DNA of 37,387 nt, taken from contig JAABTM010000015.1 in assembly GCA_011389855.1 (NCBI GenBank), forward strand, positions 1 to 37,387. Reading direction: 5' to 3'. How positions within the stretch are numbered: the first letter of the stretch is position 1; each line of letters starts with the position of its first letter. The position numbers were made by a program, and so were the translations under genes. The notes under the pieces are model-generated. The model had not been told where the DNA came from. It saw only the letters and a program-made list of their open reading frames with translations, and did not search any database. Of the stretch, positions 23,464-34,863 are shown one piece after another. This DNA comes from Desulfobacteraceae bacterium. Lineage in GTDB: Bacteria; Desulfobacterota; Desulfobacteria; Desulfobacterales; JAABSP01.

Positions 23464-25011
23464 TTATTCCGGCGGCGTCCGGTCGGGAATAAACGTGCAG
23501 GCGTCCGGGATCTTCGGCGTGAACCGGCGGGGTCCGGAAAGAATCGGTCGCCCCGCGGCCCGGGCGATGGCCTTCTGCATGCCGCGGAATATCCATTGGT
23601 GAAACGGGTAGAGCGTCCACCAGTAGAGCATCCCGGCCAGCCCCCGGGGCAGAAACCGGGAGAGAAATTCGAATTCGGATGTGCCGTCCCCCAGGGGGTT
23701 TATCCGGATTTCCAGCAAAGCCTCGCCGGGCATCTTCATCTCGGCCAGCAGGATCAGCCGCCGGGGCGGTTCCAAAACCATCACCCGCCAGAAATCGAGG
23801 GCGTCGCCCACCTGGAGTTCCGTGGGATGACGTCTGCCCCGGCGCAGTCCCATGCCGCCGGCCAGCCGGTCCAGAGCCCCCCGGAGCCACCAGAGGCTGT
23901 CGCCGAAATAGTACCCGGTCTTTCCGCCCATGCGGATCACCGGATCCCAGACCGCCTCCGGGGGCGCATCGATCCGGATGCGGTACCCGCACTCCAGAAC
24001 CGTGCCGCCCGTGTAGTCCGCGTCGCCGCAAAAGGCCCATTCCGGCGGCGTCAGGGTTCCGGCGTCGGACCAGCAGGTTTCCACCATGTTCTGCCGGACT
24101 CGCTCCAGGGCGATGCGGACCGCTTCCCGGCACGGGGTGAGGGGCAGGGGGATGCGGTCCTGAATCCGGTGCTCCCGGCAGACCACCGGAACCGCCAGCC
24201 CCTCGGCCAGGGGTTGGGCGATGTCGGCGGGGACGGGGGTGATCAGGTGAATCCAGTAGGCGCTCAGCTTGGGGGTGAGTAATGGCACGGGGATGATCCG
24301 CCGCCGGGCCAGCCCCGCTTCTTCGGCGTAGATGTCGATGATCTCCCGGTAGGAGAGGACGTCGGGCCCGCCGATGTCGTAGGTCCCGGGCGGCAGGTCC
24401 GTTTTGACCAGGCTGCCCATGAGATAGGCCAGGATGTCCCGGATGGCGATGGGCTGGCAGGGGGTGTGGACCCACCGGGGGGTGATCATCACCGGCAGCC
24501 GTTCCGTCAGGTACCGGAGCATCTCGAAGGAGGCGCTCCCCGACCCAAGGATCATGGCGGCCCGGAGCACTACCACCGGGACGGGGCCGTCGGCCAGAAT
24601 CGTTTCCACTTCGTGGCGGGACCGGAGGTGGGGGCTCAGGTCGGCGTCGTCCGGGTCGCCGAGGCCGCTGAGATAGATGATCCGGTCCAGACCGCCGGCG
24701 GCCGCGGCCGCGGCCATATTTTGGGCCCCGGTCCGGTCGGCCCGGGCGTAGGCTTTTTTCTGGGCCGTCATGGAATGGACCAGGTAAAAGGCCGCGCCGC
24801 ACCCGTCCGCGGCCCGTTCCATGGAGTCGGCGTCCAGCACGTCTCCCCCGGCCAGTTCCACATTGGGGTTCCGGCCCCAGGGACGGCAGGCCAGTTTCTC
24901 GACGGACCGTCCCAGGGCCCGGACCCGATACCCGGCCGACAGCAGCCGGGGCACGAGCCGGCCCCCCACATATCCGGTGGCGCCGACGACCAGCACCTGT
25001 TCGTTTTCCAT
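23464..25011 (-). CDS. NAD(P)-binding SDR protein with C-terminal DUF2867
   Basis: The 515-residue product has an atypical short-chain dehydrogenase domain at 1 to about 300: the cofactor motif GATGYVGGRL at 10-19, YLVHSM at 86-91, and LRAAMILGSGSASFEMLRYL at about 157-176. A DUF2867 domain follows at about 345-490 (WALRGALDR-like WWLRGALDRL, then VGDALDFWRV, then WTLYPFHQWIFRGM). This two-domain architecture is widespread in bacteria and uncharacterised; it may act on a lipid or quinone-like substrate. AAGGAGG lies 5 bases before the ATG. It is the last gene of a leftward operon, 24 bases after the helicase-like gene. Confidence 0.9.
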   Translation of the reverse strand: MENEQVLVVGATGYVGGRLVPRLLSAGYRVRALGRSVEKLACRPWGRNPNVELAGGDVLDADSMERAADGCGAAFYLVHSMTAQKKAYARADRTGAQNMAAAAAAGGLDRIIYLSGLGDPDDADLSPHLRSRHEVETILADGPVPVVVLRAAMILGSGSASFEMLRYLTERLPVMITPRWVHTPCQPIAIRDILAYLMGSLVKTDLPPGTYDIGGPDVLSYREIIDIYAEEAGLARRRIIPVPLLTPKLSAYWIHLITPVPADIAQPLAEGLAVPVVCREHRIQDRIPLPLTPCREAVRIALERVRQNMVETCWSDAGTLTPPEWAFCGDADYTGGTVLECGYRIRIDAPPEAVWDPVIRMGGKTGYYFGDSLWWLRGALDRLAGGMGLRRGRRHPTELQVGDALDFWRVMVLEPPRRLILLAEMKMPGEALLEIRINPLGDGTSEFEFLSRFLPRGLAGMLYWWTLYPFHQWIFRGMQKAIARAAGRPILSGPRRFTPKIPDACTFIPDRTPPE

Positions 25012-25035: not shown

Positions 25036-27234
25036 TCAGAAAGTAACCGTTACCCGTTGCCAGAGATCCGCGGCGTCTTGGGTGAGACGGGCGAAGCCGC
25101 CGGTCGTCAGGCCGGTCCGGCGGACCAGGGTTTCGGAATCGGCGCCCTGTCGCCACGCCAGCAGGGCCGCCGATCCGTCCCGGTCGTAATCCGGGGAGAG
25201 GATGCCGAATCGGAGCAGTTCTTTTCGGGTCTTTTCCAGAACCGGCGTCAGCCCGTCCCAGTGGTCCGCCAGCCGTCGGACGCTGTCCGACAGGGCCTCG
25301 GCCGCTTCCGGGCGGGGCGGCCGGTCCGTCTTCACGAAGCCTCCCACCAGGGCGAACGCGATATCTTCGTCCGCGTCGGGCGGCAGGGGCAGGACGCTGT
25401 TCCGGACGCATTCGATGAGCGGTTGCGGCGTTTCCAGGCCGGAGCGAAAGGCGGTTTCGCCCCAGGGAGAGAGCCCGTCCGGGTCCGCCATTAGACCGAA
25501 GGCCGACAGGCAGGCCCGGGCGTGGAGAAAATCTTCCCACAGTCCCGTGGCGGTTTCCCGCAGCCGGTCCGCCAGTTCATAAAAGGAGGACGCCGCCTCC
25601 CGGAATCTTTTGCTGCCCCGTCCGTGGCAGAGGTTGCGATGGGGGCATGACTCGCAGGGAAGCCGGCCCAGGAGGGCTTCCGCGGCCGATTTTTCCGCCA
25701 GCAGTTCGCGCCGGCGCCGGCCGGTGGCTGATCCGGCCTTGTCCTCCAGCCGGCCCAGGCGGAGTTCCAGCCGAAGGCGCAGGTCCCGGAGAGCGGCCAC
25801 CGACTGGAGATGGCCGCTGCACACCGGCGTCGGCAGTTCCTCGGCCATGTCGTCCCTGACGGCGTCCAGGCAGAAGCGGCCGAAGGCCGGCTCGCGGGAC
25901 CCCTTGAGGGTGCGTTTCAGGGTGTCGGCGGGATCGGCGTCCATGGCCAGAAGGGCCAGGGTCGTCCGGAGGTCGCAGGCCAGGGCGGACGCGAGGGGCC
26001 GCTCCGGCTTGACCAGGTGGTCCTTGATGAACACCGGATCCACGTCGGCGGTGTGGACGGCGGCGACCAGCCCGTTGGGGTCGGTCCCCGGGCGGCCGGC
26101 CAGCCGGATGAGCCGATCCATCTCCCAGTCCGCTAGGGGATCCTTTTTGGGGTCCGGCTCTGTGCCCGATGCGGCCAGGAGGACGCTCCGGAACCGGCCG
26201 GCGGACCGGACCGCCGATTCGGGGGTGGCGAAGACCGCGTCGAGGCCGTCCAGGGCGAGCCATTCCTCCACCAGCCGGTTCCAGAGGGGATGGTGGCCCC
26301 GGTGGCGGGGCGCGGCCCGCCGGGAGAGGGCGGGTTGGAGGGCCGGGTAATCCTTCAGAAACGGATGGTCGTCCAGGAGGGCGGTAATCCGGGGATGGGT
26401 CAGGAGGTCGCCGGGGGTGGGGGTCCGGTCCCCCTTGGGGCAGACGGCGGCGGCCCGGTCGCAGGCATCGGGGTCGGCCATGAGGATGAGGGCCGGCGTC
26501 AGGTCCGCCGTCCGCAGCCCTTTGACCATATCCCGGACGAACCGGCCGGCGGCCGGGTCGTCCGCCGGTTTTTGGGCTTTGAGGCGCTTTTTGGCTTTGT
26601 TGGCCACCCGTTTACGGTCGGTCAGGGGCGTCATCTCGCCGTCGGCGGTATACAGGGCGGCGACCCGGGGCATCTCCGGGAGGTCGAGGACCTCGGCGCG
26701 GCAGGGGCGGGACCGGGCGGCCGCCAGCCAGGCCGCGGCCCCGTCGGGGTCGGAGACCGGGTCGCAGAGGCAGAGAACGGGCGAGCCCGGGGCCACGCGG
26801 AGAAGAAGGATTTCCAGGTCGGGCCCGCCGTCTGCGGCGCCCATCTCCTGAAGGTCGTCGAGGATCAGGAGGTCAGGGTGGATGGGGGGGCGGCCCCGGA
26901 GGGCTTCCGGCCGCAGAAGGGTCGCGCCTTGGGAGATGTCCCCTTGGGGAACGGCGTCCGAGACGGGCCGGCCGTCGGCGGCCAGGGCCGAGGCCATGCG
27001 GGCCGCGGCGAACGGGGTGAGGCGGGGGCTCACGTACAGGGCCCGGCGCGTCGGGTCCAGGCGGCCGAGGACCGACCGGGCCAGGGTCGTCTTTCCCGAT
27101 CCCGGCGGGGCGAAGACCAGCACATCGGTTCCGGATCGAAGATCCCCGATCAGCCGGTCCGGCAGGTCCTCGGGCGGGGCCGCCGGTTTCGGGCCGTCGG
27201 CGCCCAGAAGCTTTCTGAGTTTGTCGTCGATCAA
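25036..27234 (-). CDS. Ski2/HelY-like helicase with eroded motifs
   Basis: The 732-residue protein follows the Ski2-like superfamily 2 layout from end to end, but most catalytic motifs have decayed. Motif I is intact (APPGSGKTT, 42-50). Motif II is DDLQ (126-129) instead of DExH; motif III is CDPV (157-160) instead of SAT. The second RecA domain is recognisable (HHPLWNRLVEEWL from 314, FATPES at 335-340). Motif VI is RLIRLAGRPG (374-383) instead of QxxGRAGRxG, keeping only the last Arg. A Cys cluster (CESCPHRNLC, 527-536) precedes a Ski2-type helical C-terminus. The start is TTG 27234, overlapping the flavin-oxidase TGA, with GGGAGGG upstream. It may bind ATP and RNA or DNA without unwinding. 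The family call rests on my motif alignment. Confidence 0.75.
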   Translation of the reverse strand: MIDDKLRKLLGADGPKPAAPPEDLPDRLIGDLRSGTDVLVFAPPGSGKTTLARSVLGRLDPTRRALYVSPRLTPFAAARMASALAADGRPVSDAVPQGDISQGATLLRPEALRGRPPIHPDLLILDDLQEMGAADGGPDLEILLLRVAPGSPVLCLCDPVSDPDGAAAWLAAARSRPCRAEVLDLPEMPRVAALYTADGEMTPLTDRKRVANKAKKRLKAQKPADDPAAGRFVRDMVKGLRTADLTPALILMADPDACDRAAAVCPKGDRTPTPGDLLTHPRITALLDDHPFLKDYPALQPALSRRAAPRHRGHHPLWNRLVEEWLALDGLDAVFATPESAVRSAGRFRSVLLAASGTEPDPKKDPLADWEMDRLIRLAGRPGTDPNGLVAAVHTADVDPVFIKDHLVKPERPLASALACDLRTTLALLAMDADPADTLKRTLKGSREPAFGRFCLDAVRDDMAEELPTPVCSGHLQSVAALRDLRLRLELRLGRLEDKAGSATGRRRRELLAEKSAAEALLGRLPCESCPHRNLCHGRGSKRFREAASSFYELADRLRETATGLWEDFLHARACLSAFGLMADPDGLSPWGETAFRSGLETPQPLIECVRNSVLPLPPDADEDIAFALVGGFVKTDRPPRPEAAEALSDSVRRLADHWDGLTPVLEKTRKELLRFGILSPDYDRDGSAALLAWRQGADSETLVRRTGLTTGGFARLTQDAADLWQRVTVTF

Positions 27235-28628
27235 TTCGCGCCCTCCCGGTCCGGAAAGATTTTGCCGGGGTTCATCAGCCCCTTGGGGTCGATGAGGTCC
27301 TTGATGGACCGCATGAGGTCGAGCCCCCCGCCGTGTTCCAGTTCCATGAACTTCCGTTTGCCGATCCCCACCCCGTGCTCGCCGGTGCAGGTGCCGCCCA
27401 CCTGGATGGCCCGCTCGACGATCCGGTGGTTGATCCGCTCCAGGGCCGCCCATCCGGTTTCGTCGGCGGGGTCGCCCACCATGACCACGTGGAGGTTGCC
27501 GTCGCCGGCGTGGCCGAAGACATACCCGGCGGCCCCGGCCGCGTCCACCAGGTCCTGGGAGAACCGGATCATCTCGGGGTAGCGGGAGATGGGGACGGCG
27601 GCGTCCACGATAAGGCTCTTTTCGCCGGGATGGGCCCGGTGGATGGTCTCCCAAGCCTCGTGGCGGGCCCGCCACAGCTCCTGCCGCTCGGCCGCTTCCA
27701 CGCCGGATCGGAAGCCGGTGGCGCCGCGGTCTTCACACAGCTCTTTGGCCAGTTCGGCGGTCTCCATGAGGGCGTCCTTGCTGATGCCGTGGAACTCGCA
27801 GAAGAGGGAGGGCGCTTCGGGGATGCCCAGCCCGTTTTCCCGGTTCATGAGCCGGATGAGGGGGACCGGCAGCAACTCCAGGGCCGCCGGTTCCAGCCCG
27901 GCGCCCATGAGCACGGCGGTGGCCTCGGAGGCGGCGGCCAGGTCCTTGAACGTGACCGTGGCGGCCAGATGGTGGTTGGGGCGGCCGGTGAGCTTGACGG
28001 TGGCTTCGGTGACGACGCCGAGGGTTCCTTCGGAGCCGACAAAGAGGCGGGTGAGGTCGTACCCGGAGGAGGATTTGGCGGCCCGGCAGCCGGTGTGGAT
28101 CGTCTTGCCGTCGGGGAGGACCACGGTGAGGCGGCGGATGTAGTCCCGGGTGGCGCCGTATTTGATGGTCCGGACCCCGGAGGCGTTGTTGGCGATCATG
28201 CCGCCGATGGTGGCGTCGGCGCCGGGGTCGGGCGGAAAAAAGAGGCCGTGCTGGCCGGCCTCCCGGTTGAGGGTCTTGCGGAGCACGCCGGGCTGGACGT
28301 CGGCCTGGAGGTCTTCGGGCCGGATGCCGATGATCCGGTCCATCCGGGTCAGATCCATGACGAGACCGCCCACCGCCGGGACGGGGTTGCCCTCGGTGCT
28401 GGTGCCGGCGCCCCAGGGGGTGACGGGGATGTCGTTTTCGTAGGTGTAAGCGAGAATCCGGGCCACTTCGTCGCCGTCGATGGGCCAGATCACCCCGGCG
28501 GGGAGGACGCCGTCATGGGCGGAGATGTCATGACGGTGGAGGTCCCGGCTCGACTGGCCGGTGGTGAACCGGTCGGAGGGGACGAATCCGCTTAAGGCCG
28601 CGATCTGGCTTTCGGTGAACGCGTTCAC
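27231..28628 (-). CDS. GlcD/LldD-like FAD-linked 2-hydroxyacid dehydrogenase
   Basis: Probably oxidises D-lactate, glycolate or a similar 2-hydroxy acid. The 465-residue product has the FAD-binding domain of the vanillyl-alcohol oxidase class (VTPWGAGTSTEGNP at about 84-97, PDPGADATIGGMIANNASG at about 147-165, GSEGTLGVVTEA) and the C-terminal oxidase domain (FGHAGDGNLHV, then CTGEHGVGIGKRKFM). The start is GTG 28628, overlapping the nitroreductase TGA (GTGA) with AAAAGGAG 5 bases ahead; the frame extends upstream but within that gene. No Fe-S partner (GlcF type) is adjacent, so the electron acceptor is unclear. It overlaps the helicase-like gene by 4 bases. Confidence 0.93.
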   Translation of the reverse strand: MNAFTESQIAALSGFVPSDRFTTGQSSRDLHRHDISAHDGVLPAGVIWPIDGDEVARILAYTYENDIPVTPWGAGTSTEGNPVPAVGGLVMDLTRMDRIIGIRPEDLQADVQPGVLRKTLNREAGQHGLFFPPDPGADATIGGMIANNASGVRTIKYGATRDYIRRLTVVLPDGKTIHTGCRAAKSSSGYDLTRLFVGSEGTLGVVTEATVKLTGRPNHHLAATVTFKDLAAASEATAVLMGAGLEPAALELLPVPLIRLMNRENGLGIPEAPSLFCEFHGISKDALMETAELAKELCEDRGATGFRSGVEAAERQELWRARHEAWETIHRAHPGEKSLIVDAAVPISRYPEMIRFSQDLVDAAGAAGYVFGHAGDGNLHVVMVGDPADETGWAALERINHRIVERAIQVGGTCTGEHGVGIGKRKFMELEHGGGLDLMRSIKDLIDPKGLMNPGKIFPDREGAN

Positions 28629-29164
28629 GAGGGCTCCTTTTGTCCGTACCGGTTGTAGTGGACTTTTTCCCATTTCAGATCGTTGTCGGTATAGGACCGT
28701 TTCTCCTCGGCCGGGTAGCCCACGGCGATGATGGCCTCCACCGCATACCCCGTCGGGAGGCCGAGCAGTTCGGCGACGCGGTCGGCGGATGAGGTTTCCT
28801 CGTTGTAATTCCGTTTCCGGATCTGGGACCAGCAGGCGCCCAGGCCTTGGGCTTCAGCGGCCAGGAGAAGGTAGACCGAGGCGATGGATGCGTCCTCCAC
28901 CCAAACGTCGGATCCGGACGGGTCGGCCACCACCGCGATGCCGAGGGCCGCGCTTTTCAAAAAGCTAGCCCCGTGGGGTTTGCACTGGGAGAGGGCGGTC
29001 AGGGTCTCCCGGTCGTCGACAACGACGAATTCCCAGGGGCGGATGCCCCGGGAAGAGGGGGAGAGGAGGGCGGCCTTCATGAGTCCGTCGATCTTTTCTT
29101 TCTCGATGGGTTGATCGGTGAATCGGCGGATGGAACGGCGTTTTTTTAGGAGGTCGAAGAACAT
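28625..29164 (-). CDS. Nitroreductase-family flavoprotein
   Basis: A 179-residue FMN-dependent NAD(P)H oxidoreductase of the nitroreductase superfamily. The N-terminal FMN-phosphate motif (KKRRSIRRF, 7-15), SPSSRGIRPWEFVVV at about 35-49 and AEAQGLGACW at about 104-113 are all present. The natural substrate is unknown; the superfamily includes quinone, flavin and nitroaromatic reductases. AAAAGGAG lies 6 bases before the ATG. It heads a leftward operon with the flavin oxidase, helicase-like and SDR genes, each joined by a 4-base overlap or short gap. It is the last gene of the GC-rich block; DNA to its right turns AT-rich. Confidence 0.92.
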   Translation of the reverse strand: MFFDLLKKRRSIRRFTDQPIEKEKIDGLMKAALLSPSSRGIRPWEFVVVDDRETLTALSQCKPHGASFLKSAALGIAVVADPSGSDVWVEDASIASVYLLLAAEAQGLGACWSQIRKRNYNEETSSADRVAELLGLPTGYAVEAIIAVGYPAEEKRSYTDNDLKWEKVHYNRYGQKEPS

Positions 29165-29344: not shown

Positions 29345-29644
29345 CTAAATGATATCTGGAGTTCCTCTCGATGCGTGCCAGACCCTTGCAATTTCAACGA
29401 AACGTTGTTCTTTGTTTACCCTGTAGACGATCCTGAATGGCTTGCGAATTAATTCACGGATAGCCGGATCGCCGAACTCGGGTACCATTCGTCCGGATTC
29501 GGGAAAGTCGGTCAATTGTTCCACTGCATTGAAAAGACTTTTTATGAGTCTTTCGGCGGTTATTGGTCTGTCCTGTTCAATGAAAGCGGCGATGTCTTTC
29601 AGGTCATATTTGGCGCTGGGCGCCCAGATCAGTCTAAAAGCCAT
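29345..29644 (-). CDS. ParE/RelE-type toxin
   Basis: The 99-residue product has the ParE-toxin pattern: WAPSAKYDLKDIAAFIEQD at 7-25, SLFNAVEQLTDFPESGRMVPEF at about 41-62, then IRKPFRIVYRVN and FVEIARVWHASR near the end. ParE toxins poison DNA gyrase and RelE toxins cut mRNA on the ribosome. The segment after PFRIVYRV and the shape of the N-terminal helices favour ParE. The ATG at 29644 lies 16 bases inside the antitoxin gene, the usual overlap in such pairs. It is the first gene past the change to AT-rich DNA. Confidence 0.9.
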   Translation of the reverse strand: MAFRLIWAPSAKYDLKDIAAFIEQDRPITAERLIKSLFNAVEQLTDFPESGRMVPEFGDPAIRELIRKPFRIVYRVNKEQRFVEIARVWHASRGTPDII

Positions 29645-29814
29645 TCCTTGAACTCTTCCCTGATCATTTCGTGGGGAATGCCCCTGCCTTCATCGAGTTC
29701 ACGTAAACCTTTGCGGACTCCGGCCATGAAGTTGATTCTCTCCTGGATATCTTCCCATCCAACATTTTCCGGCAGCTCTTGAATGCTTTTTATAGCCATT
29801 TTTTTTATGGTCAT
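29629..29814 (-). CDS. Antitoxin partner of the ParE-type toxin
   Basis: The 61-residue product (starting MTIKKMAIKSIQELPENVG) has a central VGWEDIQERINFMAGVRKGL and a C-terminus ending in FKEWLLD. I recognise it as the small acidic protein commonly paired with ParE/RelE toxins in Proteobacteria; no classical DNA-binding motif is obvious. The start is the ATG at 29814 behind AGAGG; the longer open frame upstream (to 30063) crosses the SEC-C gene antisense-free but lacks a ribosome site and looks spurious. It overlaps the toxin start by 16 bases, consistent with coupled expression. Confidence 0.82.
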   Translation of the reverse strand: MTIKKMAIKSIQELPENVGWEDIQERINFMAGVRKGLRELDEGRGIPHEMIREEFKEWLLD

Positions 29815-29887
29815 AAACGAACCTCTTTTTTGTTGATCAAACAATGTTTGTGGTTCAAGGATGGGAGCGATCAAACCATATGTGATT

Positions 29888-30412
29888 TCAAGCCATACAG
29901 CAAAATTTGAATTTTTTACCGCTTCCGCAAGGACAAGGGGAATATTTGTTAAAGCCCTTATAGATTTTTTTGATGGCCTTTCCCCCCAATCTCGCTTTAA
30001 ACATGGCATAATGCCGTTTGATTCGCTCGATATAGGCCGGATCGCTGAGAAATTTAGACTCAAAAAATTCTAAAAAACGTTCCGCGTATTGTGATTGTCT
30101 TTGAATCCTTTCCAGGGCCGCGCCTTTCATCTCCGCGGCCATTTCTGATGGCAGGTAGGGCGACCAGGATAAATAAAAATCCAAATCTTCCCATCCATAG
30201 GAAATTGTCGCGGCGTGGAACACTTTATAATCTGTGTCTATTTGGAGAACGTGAAAATACACGCGCCGGCAATCGCAGTGTTTATCCTCACAAAAAGAAT
30301 CAATAAAAGCGTATTCTCCATCCGGAGCTTGCGGATCGTTTCGAAGTGTGATTCGACGGGTTTCCTTTTCGGCTATTTCCGGAAAAAATTCCATAAAACG
30401 TTTAAAAATCAT
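29888..30412 (-). CDS. SEC-C zinc-motif protein
   Basis: The 174-residue product ends in a SEC-C zinc-binding motif (SPCPCGSGKKFKFCCMA), the metal site also found at the end of SecA and in YchJ. An internal Cys-rich stretch (FCEDKHCDCRRVYF, about 40-53) and mixed alpha/beta content make up the rest. The first ATG with a good ribosome site is 30412 (GGAGG about 8 bases ahead); a TTG two codons earlier is too close to that site. Function is unknown. It lies between two toxin-antitoxin pairs in AT-richer DNA and runs in the same direction. Confidence 0.85.
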   Translation of the reverse strand: MIFKRFMEFFPEIAEKETRRITLRNDPQAPDGEYAFIDSFCEDKHCDCRRVYFHVLQIDTDYKVFHAATISYGWEDLDFYLSWSPYLPSEMAAEMKGAALERIQRQSQYAERFLEFFESKFLSDPAYIERIKRHYAMFKARLGGKAIKKIYKGFNKYSPCPCGSGKKFKFCCMA

Positions 30413-30462
30413 TTCCAAATCCTCCGCGACTGCTTCGGCGCCATACGATTATGGCCGCTTAC

Positions 30463-30534
30463 TCATGCCGCTACCTTGAATAATTCGTGGAGATCAGGTA
30501 TTTTTTCTTCATGTCCCAAACGTTCAGCTATCAT
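30463..30534 (-). CDS. 23-residue ORF just after the MazF-type toxin
   Basis: Ten bases after the mazF stop, AAGGAA and ATG 30534 open a 23-codon frame (MIAERLGHEEKIPDLHELFK, then VAA) ending at TGA 30463-30465. The ribosome site spacing is good. It could be a true microprotein of the operon or the leftover start of a larger gene. I do not recognise it. Confidence 0.35.
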   Translation of the reverse strand: MIAERLGHEEKIPDLHELFKVAA

Positions 30535-30544
30535 ATGTTGTTCC

Positions 30545-30874
30545 TTAATGCGCGAAAAGCTCTTGCAAACAATTGATAATTTTAATCCGCGCGCTTTGGG
30601 AAATTACACCAAGTTTTTGAATCAACCTGGATTTGTCAACGGCTCTCATTTGGTCAAGCAAGATCAATCCTTTTTTACCCTGAAATGTATATCGAATTCT
30701 GGTTGGGTAGCTAAATCCTTTGGATGTCATTGGAGCAACAATCGCGGTCTTCAGCGCGGACATTTCATCGGGGGAGATAACAACACAAGGCCTTGCTTTT
30801 TTAATTTCAGAACCTTGTGCGGGATCAAGTTGAACGGTCCAAATCTCAAATCTATGAATGTCTTTTTTTACCAT
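30545..30874 (-). CDS. MazF/PemK-type toxin
   Basis: The 109-residue product is a PemK/MazF endoribonuclease, cutting mRNA to halt growth. Key pattern: FEIWTVQLDPAQGSEIKKARPCVVISPDEM at the N-terminal half (the conserved Gly-Ser-Glu-Ile and Arg-Pro-x-Val-Val), then IVAPMTSK, ILLDQMRAVDKSRL and a final helix. The ATG at 30874 lies 7 bases inside the antitoxin gene, with the usual order of antitoxin first. It is expressed from the promoter at 31153-31181. Confidence 0.93.
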   Translation of the reverse strand: MVKKDIHRFEIWTVQLDPAQGSEIKKARPCVVISPDEMSALKTAIVAPMTSKGFSYPTRIRYTFQGKKGLILLDQMRAVDKSRLIQKLGVISQSARIKIINCLQELFAH

Positions 30875-31122
30875 TCCCAGTTCTCTTCATCCACCAGGGG
30901 GGCATCCAACCACTCCTGATCCGCTTCGCTTGATTCCTGGGATGTAAGGGCTTTATCAAATTGTTCTTTCCACCCTTCCCTGTTTTTCTTGACAGGTTTT
31001 ATTAAGAGTCCGTCGTCGACTATTTTGAATTCCAATTGCTTGTCTTCTAATCGCGCCTGCTCGATTACCGCCTTTGGAATACGGATACCCTGCGAATTTC
31101 CTATTCTGATTAAAGTCGTCAT
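30868..31122 (-). CDS. MazE/AbrB-type antitoxin
   Basis: The 84-residue product has an N-terminal SpoVT/AbrB-like swapped-hairpin DNA-binding domain (LIRIGNSQGIRIPKAVIEQ) and an acidic C-terminus (ADQEWLDAPLVDEENWEW) that would bind and block the toxin. The ATG at 31122 has GGAG 7 bases ahead; the TTG four codons earlier would place the ribosome site inside the gene. It overlaps mazF by 7 bases. As for other MazE proteins it probably represses its own promoter with the toxin. Confidence 0.92.
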   Translation of the reverse strand: MTTLIRIGNSQGIRIPKAVIEQARLEDKQLEFKIVDDGLLIKPVKKNREGWKEQFDKALTSQESSEADQEWLDAPLVDEENWEW

Positions 31123-31152
31123 TTTCGGCTCCAATTGTGTTTAAGTAATTAC

Positions 31153-31181
31153 AATGTACACACAAATGGATCTGTTGTCAA
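31153..31181 (-). promoter_or_regulatory. Promoter of the MazEF pair
   Basis: Leftward, a perfect TTGACA (31181-31176), a 17-base spacer and TACATT (31158-31153) lie about 30 bases upstream of the antitoxin ATG. The AT-rich region around the -10 is where the antitoxin would be expected to bind. Confidence 0.75.
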
Positions 31182-31220
31182 ATCATACTTGTTTTTATTT
31201 TGAGAACGCAAAAGTCAGCG

Positions 31221-31427
31221 TCAATCGGGGCCTGGATCGCTAGCGGAAGCCCCTAATTGTCCGCTGGACCGCCGGATTCTGGGGCCAGGAATTTCGTATA
31301 CGATACGGCCATCTCGCCAAATTGGAATTTTATAGTTATTTCTTCTTGCATCTTCAGAAACTTTAAAAGCAGCTCGCTTTAAAGCTTTCAGGCCTATTAT
31401 TGCATATTTATTATGTCCTTCTTCCAT
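31221..31427 (-). CDS. Small partner of the zeta-like kinase, with an odd GC-rich tail
   Basis: The first 47 residues (NKYAIIGLKALKRAAFKVSE up to WRDGRIVYEIP) match a small protein usually found beside zeta-like P-loop kinases, possibly the antitoxin. The last 21 residues (GPRIRRSSGQLGASASDPGP and D) come from a GC-rich stretch (31221-31290) out of keeping with the AT-rich gene body and are probably encoded by DNA joined here later. The 31224-31253 region can fold with GGGGC/GCCCC arms. The gene starts 5 bases after the kinase stop. Confidence 0.65.
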   Translation of the reverse strand: MEEGHNKYAIIGLKALKRAAFKVSEDARRNNYKIPIWRDGRIVYEIPGPRIRRSSGQLGASASDPGPD

Positions 31428-31432
31428 GATTG

Positions 31433-31945
31433 TTACTCCGATTCATCTGTTATCAGTGGTATATTTCCTGATGTGTCAAATACAATCCACGAATCAGCTA
31501 ATTCTTTGTAAAAGTTATTGAAATTGTACCAGCTTCTTTCAAAACGACGACGAATATCTTGCTCTGGAACGTTATGGCCTCCTTGAGCTACTCGCAGTTT
31601 CACTCTCTCAATGGCGAATTCAACTGATGGGAGTTTGAAAAAATAAATAATAATTTCATATTGTTGCTTTTTCCAATCATATACCTTCTTTATATATCCT
31701 TTTCCGCTGAGTGTTGTTTCAAAAGCAAATGATTCATTCTTTCTGATACACTCATTTATATGCCGAATCATTAACCTTCCAGCTTCGATCGCCACCCTAT
31801 CGGGTTTGAATGGTGAGAGACCTTGAGCTATCAAGTCGGCATTTATGAAATTGATACACTCTGCTTCTTTGGGGAGAAACTCATTGGCAAAAGTTGTTTT
31901 TCCTGACCCATTTGGGCCGCCCAATATATAGCATTTTTTCTTCAA
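31433..31945 (-). CDS. Zeta-toxin-like P-loop kinase
   Basis: A 170-residue P-loop protein with Walker A GGPNGSGKTT at 9-18, INADLIAQGLSPF at about 34-46 and FAFETTLSG at about 74-82, the pattern of zeta toxins (UDP-N-acetylglucosamine kinases) and their chromosomal relatives. The start appears to be TTG 31945 (AGGA about 11 bases ahead); no ATG lies in frame before the P loop and a stop lies not far upstream. It pairs with the small gene at 31221-31427. Whether it is an active toxin or an uncharacterised kinase cannot be told from sequence. Confidence 0.8.
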   Translation of the reverse strand: MKKKCYILGGPNGSGKTTFANEFLPKEAECINFINADLIAQGLSPFKPDRVAIEAGRLMIRHINECIRKNESFAFETTLSGKGYIKKVYDWKKQQYEIIIYFFKLPSVEFAIERVKLRVAQGGHNVPEQDIRRRFERSWYNFNNFYKELADSWIVFDTSGNIPLITDESE

Positions 31946-32037
31946 AAAACTATATTCCTGAATACATTTTCAGTATTAACCACAGAACCCCGGTATTCAG
32001 CCGCGCGGCTTTTTGCGTCGGCAGAATTAACCTTGTT

Positions 32038-32263
32038 GTGTGCCGGGCACGGCACGTATTCTAATGGGTGCGCCCCGGCGGCGAAGCAGCGCCGGCGGCA
32101 AGTCCCTGATCCAGTCTGATGGAGGCGAAGGATGTAGCCGACAGTGCAACGGGGTATCCGGCAACGGACCTCGGGAGGAAGCCGTCCCGCCGAGGCGGGA
32201 TGCCGCAAGCGCACGGGGCGATGTACAAGAACTGAGTCAGGCGGGCCTGACCCCATAGGGGGC
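32038..32263 (+). mobile_element. Probable 5' fragment of a group II intron
   Basis: A GC-rich 225-base island in AT-rich DNA starts with GTGTGCCGGGCACGGCAC, matching the GUGYG 5' end of bacterial group II introns. It continues with folded, non-coding sequence that I recognise as domain-I-like (for example GTCTGATGGAGGCGAAGGAT and GAACTGAGTCAGGCGGGCCT). No reverse transcriptase ORF or domain V follows; the similarity stops at about 32263, just beyond the stop of the leftward membrane-protein gene. The element is therefore a truncated, immobile remnant. The call rests on remembered intron sequence and needs a covariance-model check. Confidence 0.5.
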
Positions 32264-32266
32264 TTG

Positions 32267-32446
32267 TTATGAACCATTTTTAGGTTTTTTCTTAAAAACA
32301 AAAGTAATCATACGACAAAAAAGTTGAAAACAAAATGCAAGAGCAAAAAATAATAGTTCAAAAAAGCCAGCCACTAAAGACAAAATCTCTAAACCACAAA
32401 ACAAAAAAACTATGGCTAAGATGACTATAACGATAATCCAAGTCAT
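32267..32446 (-). CDS. 59-residue two-helix membrane protein
   Basis: A leftward frame from ATG 32446 to TAA 32269-32267 encodes 59 residues with two strongly hydrophobic helices: 3-20 (WIIVIVILAIVFLFCGLE) and about 25-45 (VAGFFELLFFALAFCFQLFC), then a basic tail (KKKPKNGS). AAGG lies about 10 bases before the ATG. The amphipathic spacing, basic C-terminus and ribosome site argue for a real gene. It sits 125 bases downstream of the MORN protein gene in the same direction. Function unknown; no family recognised. Confidence 0.6.
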   Translation of the reverse strand: MTWIIVIVILAIVFLFCGLEILSLVAGFFELLFFALAFCFQLFCRMITFVFKKKPKNGS

Positions 32447-32571: not shown

Positions 32572-34863
32572 TTACTTACCCTGATTTTCTTTTAATTTTC
32601 TATAAGCATTATTATAGAAATCGGCGTTTTCAATTGTAAACCTGTATTCTGTGCTCGGAGAATCGATACGATTTATGATAAATTTTAATGTTCCACCTTT
32701 CATCAAAGCCTTATGTAGTGAATATGATTTTTCTGTAATGCTAAATCTATCCGAATAATTAGAAGCTAGCCCCATAAATCGTTCCCCCTCTTTATCTTGA
32801 ACATGGATATAATAAGCGGTTATAATATTAGATTTTAGAGGATTAAGTCCACTATACTCAAAAAGTTGAAAATCAATATTTTTAGCATCGACAATTATAA
32901 AATCTACTCTTAACTTTGAATTATTTGTAGCTGTATTGCTAAAAGTCCCTAATATAGGTATTTTATTGGTAATATAAGGTTTGTTTGTTGATACACCGAA
33001 TTCATCGACAAAATAGCGGACATTCCAAATTCCTGTATTATGAAGATATTTTTCTCTTTGCTCTTCTCCATTTTTAAACTCGCCCTCAAAAACTTCAGCT
33101 ATTTTACCATTTATATACCATACATATGTGCCCTTTCCATACGGTTCACCATTTCTATACTCACCTTCAAATGATTTAGTTTTTCCATCATCTTTATACC
33201 AAACTGAAATGCCTACGCCAAATAATTTTCCATTTCTATGTTCACCTTGATGAGTCCTGATCTTTTTCTCACTTGTAAACATTGTCGAAGCACTTTCATA
33301 CCAAATAGAAGTCCCTTTTCCATATGGTTTTCCGTCTTTATGTTCACCTTTGTACGATCTGATCATCGAACCATTTCCATCATACCATTCATACACGCCG
33401 AGGCCATTAGGTTTTCCATTCTTATATTCACCTACATAATTTTCAATTTTACTATCAGCCTTGTACCATGTTGAATAGATTTTTTTGGATAATTTCCCAT
33501 TTTTAAATTCGCCTTTAAATTTACTGATTTTTTTTCCGCTTTCATAGTGTGTCAAAATGCCTTTCCCATGTTGTTTTCCATTCTTAAATTCACCCTCATA
33601 ATAATCGCCTTTATGCATCTCACCATTTTTAAATTCACCTCTAAAAAATCCAGTCTTATTGCCATTATTATAACATGTTGAAACTCCTTTTCCATGCATT
33701 TGACCGTCTTTATATTCGCCACTATATGTCCTGCTCATTTCGCCATTTTCATACCATGTACATTCACCTTGACCATTAGCTTCTCCATCTTTGTATTCTC
33801 CTTCATAATATTCCACTTTTTCGCCTTTTTTTAACAATGTATTTTTAAACACTGTATAGGAACCAATACCGTGCCTTTTCCCATCTTTAAATTCCCCTTC
33901 GTAATATCCAGTTTTTTCGCCTTTACTGAGCCATTTATCACTATACCACGTATAAGATCCAATGCCATTAGGAATTTCATCTTTAAATTCACCTACATAA
34001 TATGTTGTTTTTTCGTCATTTTCATACCATGTTGAAGAAATTTTTCTAATTAGTTTACCCTTTTCATATTTACCCTCATAAGAATTGATTTTTTTGCCAT
34101 TTTTATAGTATGTTACAGTGCCTTTACCGTGTTGAATTCCATTTTTAAAACCGCCCTCATAGCAATAGCCATTGTGCAACACGCCATTTATAAAAAATCC
34201 ATAAAAAGCTTTGATCTTTTTGCCATTTTCAAAGTAGGTTAAAATGCCATTCTTTTGCATTTTCCCGTCTTCATGGTCGCCTTCATAGAGCCTGATTAAT
34301 TCGCCGTTTTCATACCATGAAGAAGAGCCTTTTCCTAGCATTTTCCCTTCATTATATTCGCCGTTATAATATCTAACCTTTTCGCCATTCTCATACCAGA
34401 TATATTGCCCCTTGCCGTGCGGTTTACCGTCTTCAAAGTCACCTTTGTAATACCTAATTTTTTCGTTTTTATTCAGCCAAGTATTGTTGTACCAAGTACA
34501 TGCACCCATGCCGTGGGGGTTGCCTTTTTTAAATTCGCCTTCATAATGTCTAGTTTTTTTGTTTTTATTTAGCCATCCATTATCATACCACACATAAACG
34601 CCCTTACCATGGGATTTACCCCTTTTATAATCACCCTCATAATATCCGATTTTTTTGCCTTTTTCGTACCATATGTTGGAACCTTTCCCTTGTGCATATC
34701 CCTTATTACATTTCCCTGAATAGTCAACAGTGAGTGTGGTATGCGATACTGTTATAGGGTTCCATAATCTACAACCAGACTCGGTGTCAACAATCCATTC
34801 TCCAGCAAATACTTGTGTTGAAATAAAAAACATTGTCAGATGAAAAATAATTCGCCTACTCAT
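32572..34863 (-). CDS. Secreted MORN-repeat protein
   Basis: The 763-residue product starts with a signal peptide (RRIIFHLTMFFISTQVFA, cut before GEW) and is exported. Residues about 55-600 hold some 20 MORN-type repeats (pattern YxGEFKxGKxHGKG then WYxNG). Residues 106-287 and 288-475 are a duplicated block of seven repeats. The C-terminal 150 residues form a separate beta-rich domain (FVDEFGVSTNKPYI, then GTFSNTATNNSKLRVDFIIV) that I have seen in other bacterial exported proteins without a known role. AAGGA lies about 9 bases before the ATG. MORN proteins often act at membrane surfaces; here the repeats would face the periplasm or outside. Composition is strongly AT-rich. Confidence 0.88.
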   Translation of the reverse strand: MSRRIIFHLTMFFISTQVFAGEWIVDTESGCRLWNPITVSHTTLTVDYSGKCNKGYAQGKGSNIWYEKGKKIGYYEGDYKRGKSHGKGVYVWYDNGWLNKNKKTRHYEGEFKKGNPHGMGACTWYNNTWLNKNEKIRYYKGDFEDGKPHGKGQYIWYENGEKVRYYNGEYNEGKMLGKGSSSWYENGELIRLYEGDHEDGKMQKNGILTYFENGKKIKAFYGFFINGVLHNGYCYEGGFKNGIQHGKGTVTYYKNGKKINSYEGKYEKGKLIRKISSTWYENDEKTTYYVGEFKDEIPNGIGSYTWYSDKWLSKGEKTGYYEGEFKDGKRHGIGSYTVFKNTLLKKGEKVEYYEGEYKDGEANGQGECTWYENGEMSRTYSGEYKDGQMHGKGVSTCYNNGNKTGFFRGEFKNGEMHKGDYYEGEFKNGKQHGKGILTHYESGKKISKFKGEFKNGKLSKKIYSTWYKADSKIENYVGEYKNGKPNGLGVYEWYDGNGSMIRSYKGEHKDGKPYGKGTSIWYESASTMFTSEKKIRTHQGEHRNGKLFGVGISVWYKDDGKTKSFEGEYRNGEPYGKGTYVWYINGKIAEVFEGEFKNGEEQREKYLHNTGIWNVRYFVDEFGVSTNKPYITNKIPILGTFSNTATNNSKLRVDFIIVDAKNIDFQLFEYSGLNPLKSNIITAYYIHVQDKEGERFMGLASNYSDRFSITEKSYSLHKALMKGGTLKFIINRIDSPSTEYRFTIENADFYNNAYRKLKENQGK
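33439..34548 (-). repeat. Tandem duplication of a seven-MORN block
   Basis: Block A (34003-34548, residues 106-287) and block B (33439-34002, residues 288-475) align unit by unit. Both begin with the longer unit containing a WLxKxEK insertion (TWLNKNEK; KWLSKGEK). Both contain a shortened unit (GFFINGVLHNG; GEFKNGEMHKG) followed by EGGFKNGIQHGKG / EGEFKNGKQHGKG. Both end with a GKL-R/S-KI degenerate unit followed by STWY. Sequence has diverged since duplication. Confidence 0.8.

Follow-up and report, generated by a model that had tools for sequence, protein, structure and literature searches.

The gene encoded on the minus strand at positions 25036–27234 of the window (the entire 37,387-nucleotide stretch of Desulfobacteraceae DNA analysed here) is, judged by its sequence relationships, one of the Ski2-like pseudohelicases that form an old lineage in the Desulfobacterota. 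The term pseudohelicase denotes lineage-wide loss of the catalytic motifs in a gene that is retained under selection, and both were found. The reading we prefer, at a probability of about 0.6, is that the protein acts as an ATP-independent scaffold or clamp for nucleic acid and/or protein, and that it descends from a lineage of long, active helicases possessing a four-cysteine element.

Gene and domain organisation

The 732-codon open frame reported in a preliminary description of the window was found at the coordinates given there, and lies on the minus strand. The gene model (732 aa) is based on the TTG start, the open frame and the homologues. The TTG occupies 27234–27232, the final codon ends at 25039 and the stop codon is located at 25038–25036. 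The sequence GGGAGGG is found six bases 5' of the TTG (27247–27241, minus strand), and the TTG overlaps the TGA of an upstream gene encoding an FAD-linked oxidase. Upstream of the TTG the frame is still open, giving 879 aa if read from a GTG; homology begins at the TTG. The motifs listed in the preliminary description (Walker A, DDLQ, CDPV, RLIRLAGRPG and CxxCx(5)C) could all be read in the translation as described.

Profile alignment to residues 61–244 of human MTR4 places a RecA1-like domain at about residues 1–195 (26650–27234; all features of the protein are on the minus strand). This domain contains an intact Walker A or motif I, APPGSGKT (residues 42–49, 27088–27111), followed by DDLQ in place of DEAH at the position of motif II (residues 126–129, 26848–26859) and CDPV in place of SAT at the position of motif III (residues 157–160, 26755–26766). 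A basic linker, PLTDRKRVANKAKKRLK (residues 203–219, 26578–26628), was recognised by column conservation; located within residues 196–235, it is the best conserved stretch of the pseudohelicase clade, with P203 and K219 invariant. A RecA2-like domain and the subsequent helices were placed by profile alignment at about residues 238–456 (25867–26523), with FATPESAVRSAGR in place of FATSTVAAGVNFP at the position of motif V (26194–26232) and RLIRLAGRPG in place of QMTGRAGRRG at that of motif VI (residues 374–383, 26086–26115). These are followed by Cys472 (25819–25821), the first invariant cysteine of the four-cysteine element, and by CESCPHRNLC (residues 527–536, 25627–25656), which contributes C527, C530 and C536. 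A diverged DSHCT-like C-terminal helical domain (residues about 561–732, 25039–25554) was delimited by profile alignment to MTR4. The window copy has no match to the DSHCT family (PF08148), and the copy of the sister genome scores 23.7 bits against a Pfam cut-off of 22.7.

Homology to Ski2 and MTR4 helicases

Searched alone against Pfam and NCBIfam, the window sequence gave P-loop and helicase matches that were all sub-threshold, and a profile was therefore needed for the Ski2 assignment. A phmmer search of the PDB with the window protein returned a Ski2-type helicase (1.5e-4). The clade profile matched human MTR4 at 2.6e-52 across RecA1, RecA2 and the DSHCT helical domain, and also matched DOB1, SKI2, FRH, Hel308 and Brr2. 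Furthermore, it matched the profile of the active bacterial paralogue at 1.2e-61 over 636 columns. By profile homology the window protein is a relative of the Ski2/MTR4-type helicases, and the earlier statement that the overall Ski2 layout remains agrees with the order RecA1, RecA2, DSHCT in the alignment to MTR4. An AlphaFold model of the window protein, computed from an alignment with one relative only, had a pLDDT of 35 and a pTM of 0.22.

By profile alignment, the domain order RecA1-RecA2-insertion-DSHCT is common to the window protein, Ski2/MTR4 (DOB1) and the bacterial DSHCT-type relatives. The pseudohelicase differs from this family in its degenerate motifs II, III, V and VI, and in having a short four-cysteine stalk at the position of the arch.

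Distribution and phylogeny

Homologues of two kinds were found in 58 related genomes: a canonical DSHCT-type Ski2-like helicase, present in almost all of them, and a few homologues that match the window gene over its full length (identities of 90, 38, 35, 30, 25 and 24%). A class-wide search of 389 genomes gave full-length matches of at least 391 bits in 12, and the remainder, including the active paralogues, reached at most 256 bits. The presence of the pseudohelicase was patchy, even within single genera. Among 395 genomes sampled evenly across the phylum, 11 matches reached an E value of 1e-85, namely the window protein, a pseudohelicase in genome G726 (656 bits) and nine proteins with canonical motifs and the four-cysteine element. 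The clade has 13 members in total, 12 from the 389 genomes of the class and one (G726) from elsewhere in the phylum.

A maximum-likelihood tree of 54 proteins separates the 12 divergent proteins from all the others by a single branch, whose support is 100/100. The branching order inside the clade is unsure because its branches are long, as flagged by the tool.

Loss of the catalytic motifs

Alignment of the clade revealed that motifs II, III, V and VI are non-canonical in all 13 proteins; the orthologues of the 12 other genomes share this loss with the window copy. In 51 canonical proteins the motif columns have a mean identity of 0.91 and the other columns one of 0.52, whereas the corresponding values in the pseudohelicase clade are 0.30 and 0.28, a difference that is not significant. 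Furthermore, 80 of the 169 residues that are near-invariant in the canonical paralogues are retained by no more than two clade members out of 13. The two comparisons indicate that catalytic constraint is lost lineage-wide and that the altered motifs are not a matter of local decay. A lone decaying copy among orthologues with canonical motifs is not what we observe, since 12 genomes share the motif loss together with retention of the layout and the cysteines. The same clade-wide pattern lends good support to the proposal of a former Ski2-like helicase that has been retained for another role.

Selection

The gene had been said to be under selection on account of its open frame, and comparison between genomes agrees with this. 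The dN/dS is 0.45 for the closest pair (the window and its sister genome, G001) and 0.31 for the pair G092/G284. Constraint on the pseudohelicase is modest, as these values exceed those of neighbouring genes (0.07–0.20). When the same base changes are placed neutrally, 105.5±5.2 amino-acid differences are expected between the window and G001, and 75 are observed (5.8 SD below); between G092 and G284, 137±5.7 are expected and 96 observed (7.1 SD below). Both pairs evolve under purifying selection. The frames are full length (700+ codons) in all 13 genomes, which represent several families and two higher groups, and K219, K404 and L278 are invariant in this clade specifically. Chance is excluded by 12 further full-length orthologues that are open over more than 700 codons, taken together with the deficit of amino-acid changes in both pairs. 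The observation is real, and is neither an artefact nor the decay of a single copy.

The four-cysteine element

C472, C527, C530 and C536 (C…CxxCx5C) are invariant in 13 of 13 clade members. The preliminary description was right that a Cys-rich element remains, but the element is not peculiar to the window protein: the same four cysteines are present in all of 19 long, motif-intact helicases (10 from inside the order and nine from outside), although these were recruited by their high score against the clade profile and are not a random sample. The segment is absent from 32 short canonical forms. Most simply, the element would have been inherited from active long helicases.

The element is located between the RecA2 part and DSHCT, where MTR4 and Ski2 carry the arch insertion; the correspondence is one of position only. 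The cysteine stalk may be a metal site, putatively for Zn or [4Fe-4S]. We take the CxxCx5C spacing of AddB to be similar to that of the pseudohelicase element. In the four-cysteine Fe-S 'staple' of AddB and Cas4, one distant cysteine is combined with a three-cysteine cluster (PMC3466216), and the pseudohelicase has the same arrangement. Unlike AddB and Cas4, the pseudohelicase has no match to a RecB-type nuclease domain in Pfam or NCBIfam. The resemblance is in spacing, and we do not claim homology.

Genomic context

A nitroreductase-family gene is located upstream (28625–29164, minus strand). It is found upstream of the pseudohelicase in all three genomes of the window's family (the window's own, G001 and G002) and not elsewhere. 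Across families, no conserved operon, neighbour or partner was found in the neighbourhoods compared. An operon-based function was rejected, the nitroreductase being the sole kept neighbour and confined to one family. A mobile-element reading was likewise rejected after tblastn gave no match among plasmids or phages, as was a role in a defence system, where the match to PADLOC mad8 is at the level of the P-loop only (22.7 bits, residues 31–73).

Several features of the loci are worth recording in their own right. The FAD-linked oxidase gene (glcD-like, 27231–28673), situated between the nitroreductase and the pseudohelicase, is intact in the window. In the sister genome (L037 at 6632) about 1.27 kb of it (window positions 27280–28553) is missing and both ends are left, the result of either a deletion or an assembly fault. 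Starting 25 bases past the pseudohelicase stop is a gene for an SDR (NmrA-like) protein with a C-terminal DUF2867 (23467–25011, minus strand); it is 97% identical in the sister genome and has a dN/dS of 0.11, a far stronger constraint than that on the pseudohelicase. The window also contains a toxin-antitoxin-like cluster (29351–32301) with a ParE toxin (29351–29644), a MazE-type antitoxin (30874–31134) and a zeta-toxin-like P-loop protein (31436–31945) adjoining a small gene (31945–32301), and a 763-aa MORN-repeat protein with 11 passing Pfam stretches (32575–34863, minus strand).

The pseudohelicase frame of G002 (L032:7107-11921) is not closed by a stop and continues into a pepN-like M1 aminopeptidase, giving a frame of 1605 aa in which the aminopeptidase match covers residues about 790–1350 and an ATGATG is found past the linker at about 9452. 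This represents either a fusion or a missing stop. In G320 (L078:2868-10207) the pseudohelicase is located downstream of a gene for a 1075-aa protein, with two genes of the same direction between them; the start of the 1075-aa protein resembles a CRISPR RAMP protein by eye only.

Proposed role

A long active helicase with four cysteines would be the ancestor of the pseudohelicase lineage, with a duplication or an early split as the probable route. At the level of sequence, motifs II, III, V and VI, whose residues link ATP hydrolysis with unwinding, have been lost, and the missing P-loop suggests that ATP binding has also been lost in most members. The protein would have neither ATPase nor unwinding activity. 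Two RecA-like lobes, the conserved basic linker, the four-cysteine stalk and the DSHCT helical domain are kept; the lobes, the linker and DSHCT would bind nucleic acid, a partner protein or both, with no movement driven by ATP. The nucleic-acid clamp named in the preliminary description is a plausible candidate role. A purely ATP-free role leaves the perfect Walker A of the window protein unexplained.

The same description had put forward an ATP-dependent switch. For the clade as a whole this fails, because the GKT of the P-loop is kept in only four of the 13 proteins, from two genera. Within the clade the full [AG]xxxxGK[ST] Walker A is kept only by the window's genus, and GKT with an altered first residue by G092 and G284, the two g76 genomes. 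By parsimony, the P-loop would be ancestral and several losses would have followed. For the window's genus alone a switch is possible, if doubtful: its Walker A would bind ATP without fast hydrolysis, and thereby open and close the lobes on nucleic acid. Consistent with this, the two genomes of the genus both have an unaltered APPGSGKT, and GKT persists in the g76 pair. A nucleotide pocket is also retained in the C-terminal cassette of Brr2, which has no enzymatic activity (PMC8220420). Moreover, no canonical helicase was found in the window's genome (95% complete) or in that of its sister (98% complete) with the window protein, the canonical profile and the DSHCT family as queries, so the window protein may have needed to keep more. 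However, nine of the 13 members lack the P-loop, among them G002, the closest relative beyond the genus, which argues that the P-loop is not required for the common function. Motifs V and VI, which read the gamma-phosphate, are likewise degenerate.

Less probable still is an inactive partner subunit resembling RecC or AddB, which would form a heterodimer with a canonical Ski2-like helicase, or pair with a helicase/nuclease partner, in order to regulate or guide it. The active paralogue is indeed co-present in most pseudohelicase genomes (G002, G026, G034, G037, G041, G092 and G320, with a DSHCT protein in G726), but it is near-universal in the order, and co-occurrence thus says little. Nor are the two genes neighbours or close together in any of the loci examined, and the absence of an active paralogue from the searches of the window and sister genomes also speaks against a heterodimer of this kind.

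That the gene has no current function and is slowly decaying as selection on it is relaxed is largely refuted and in our view very unlikely. It would agree with a dN/dS of 0.45, well above that of the neighbours, and with the patchy presence within genera; it is opposed by 13 intact frames of 700+ codons, by amino-acid changes 5.8–7.1 SD below neutral and by newly invariant residues. A helicase or translocase still active despite its unorthodox motifs, as the intact Walker A and the DD at motif II of the window copy might suggest, is hardly credible when the arginine-finger region of motif VI and motifs III and V are unconserved in the clade and the motif columns bear no extra constraint.

Comparison with known pseudohelicases and significance

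Inactive helicases have been described before. PriA of Deinococcus radiodurans is without ATPase or unwinding activity and has kept DNA binding and contact with DnaB (PMC4504706), and yeast Utp25 is a DEAD-box pseudohelicase (PMC9539457). As in the present clade, the helicase motifs of both were lost lineage-wide and the protein was kept, but they belong to helicase families other than the Ski2-like. In Deinococcus the PriA orthologue itself has been inactivated, whereas here a separate lineage is usually found alongside an active paralogue. The C-terminal cassette of Brr2 is an enzymatically inactive Ski2-like helicase fold under selection (PMC8220420); for our protein, inactivity is read from sequence. 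That cassette is spliceosomal and fused to an active one, whereas the pseudohelicase is free-standing and bacterial, and has four cysteines and DSHCT. No inactive bacterial Ski2 paralogue turned up in our literature search, and a full-text search on 'pseudohelicase' returned very few proteins so named, none of them of the bacterial Ski2/MTR4 type.

A more specific speculation, which we regard as doubtful, is that of a dedicated bacterial Ski2-type pseudohelicase with an Fe-S stalk, in which passive and possibly redox-sensitive binding of RNA or DNA has taken the place of ATP-driven unwinding, and which filled the role of the active helicase once the latter had been lost from the window's genus.

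Genomes that carry both a motif-dead lineage and its highly conserved active sister offer a clean comparison for a Ski2-type protein without its motor. Such a comparison would also bear on the role of the four-cysteine element common to both. In the window's genus, where the active copy has apparently been lost and the P-loop is kept in the dead copy, there would be a natural test of substitution.
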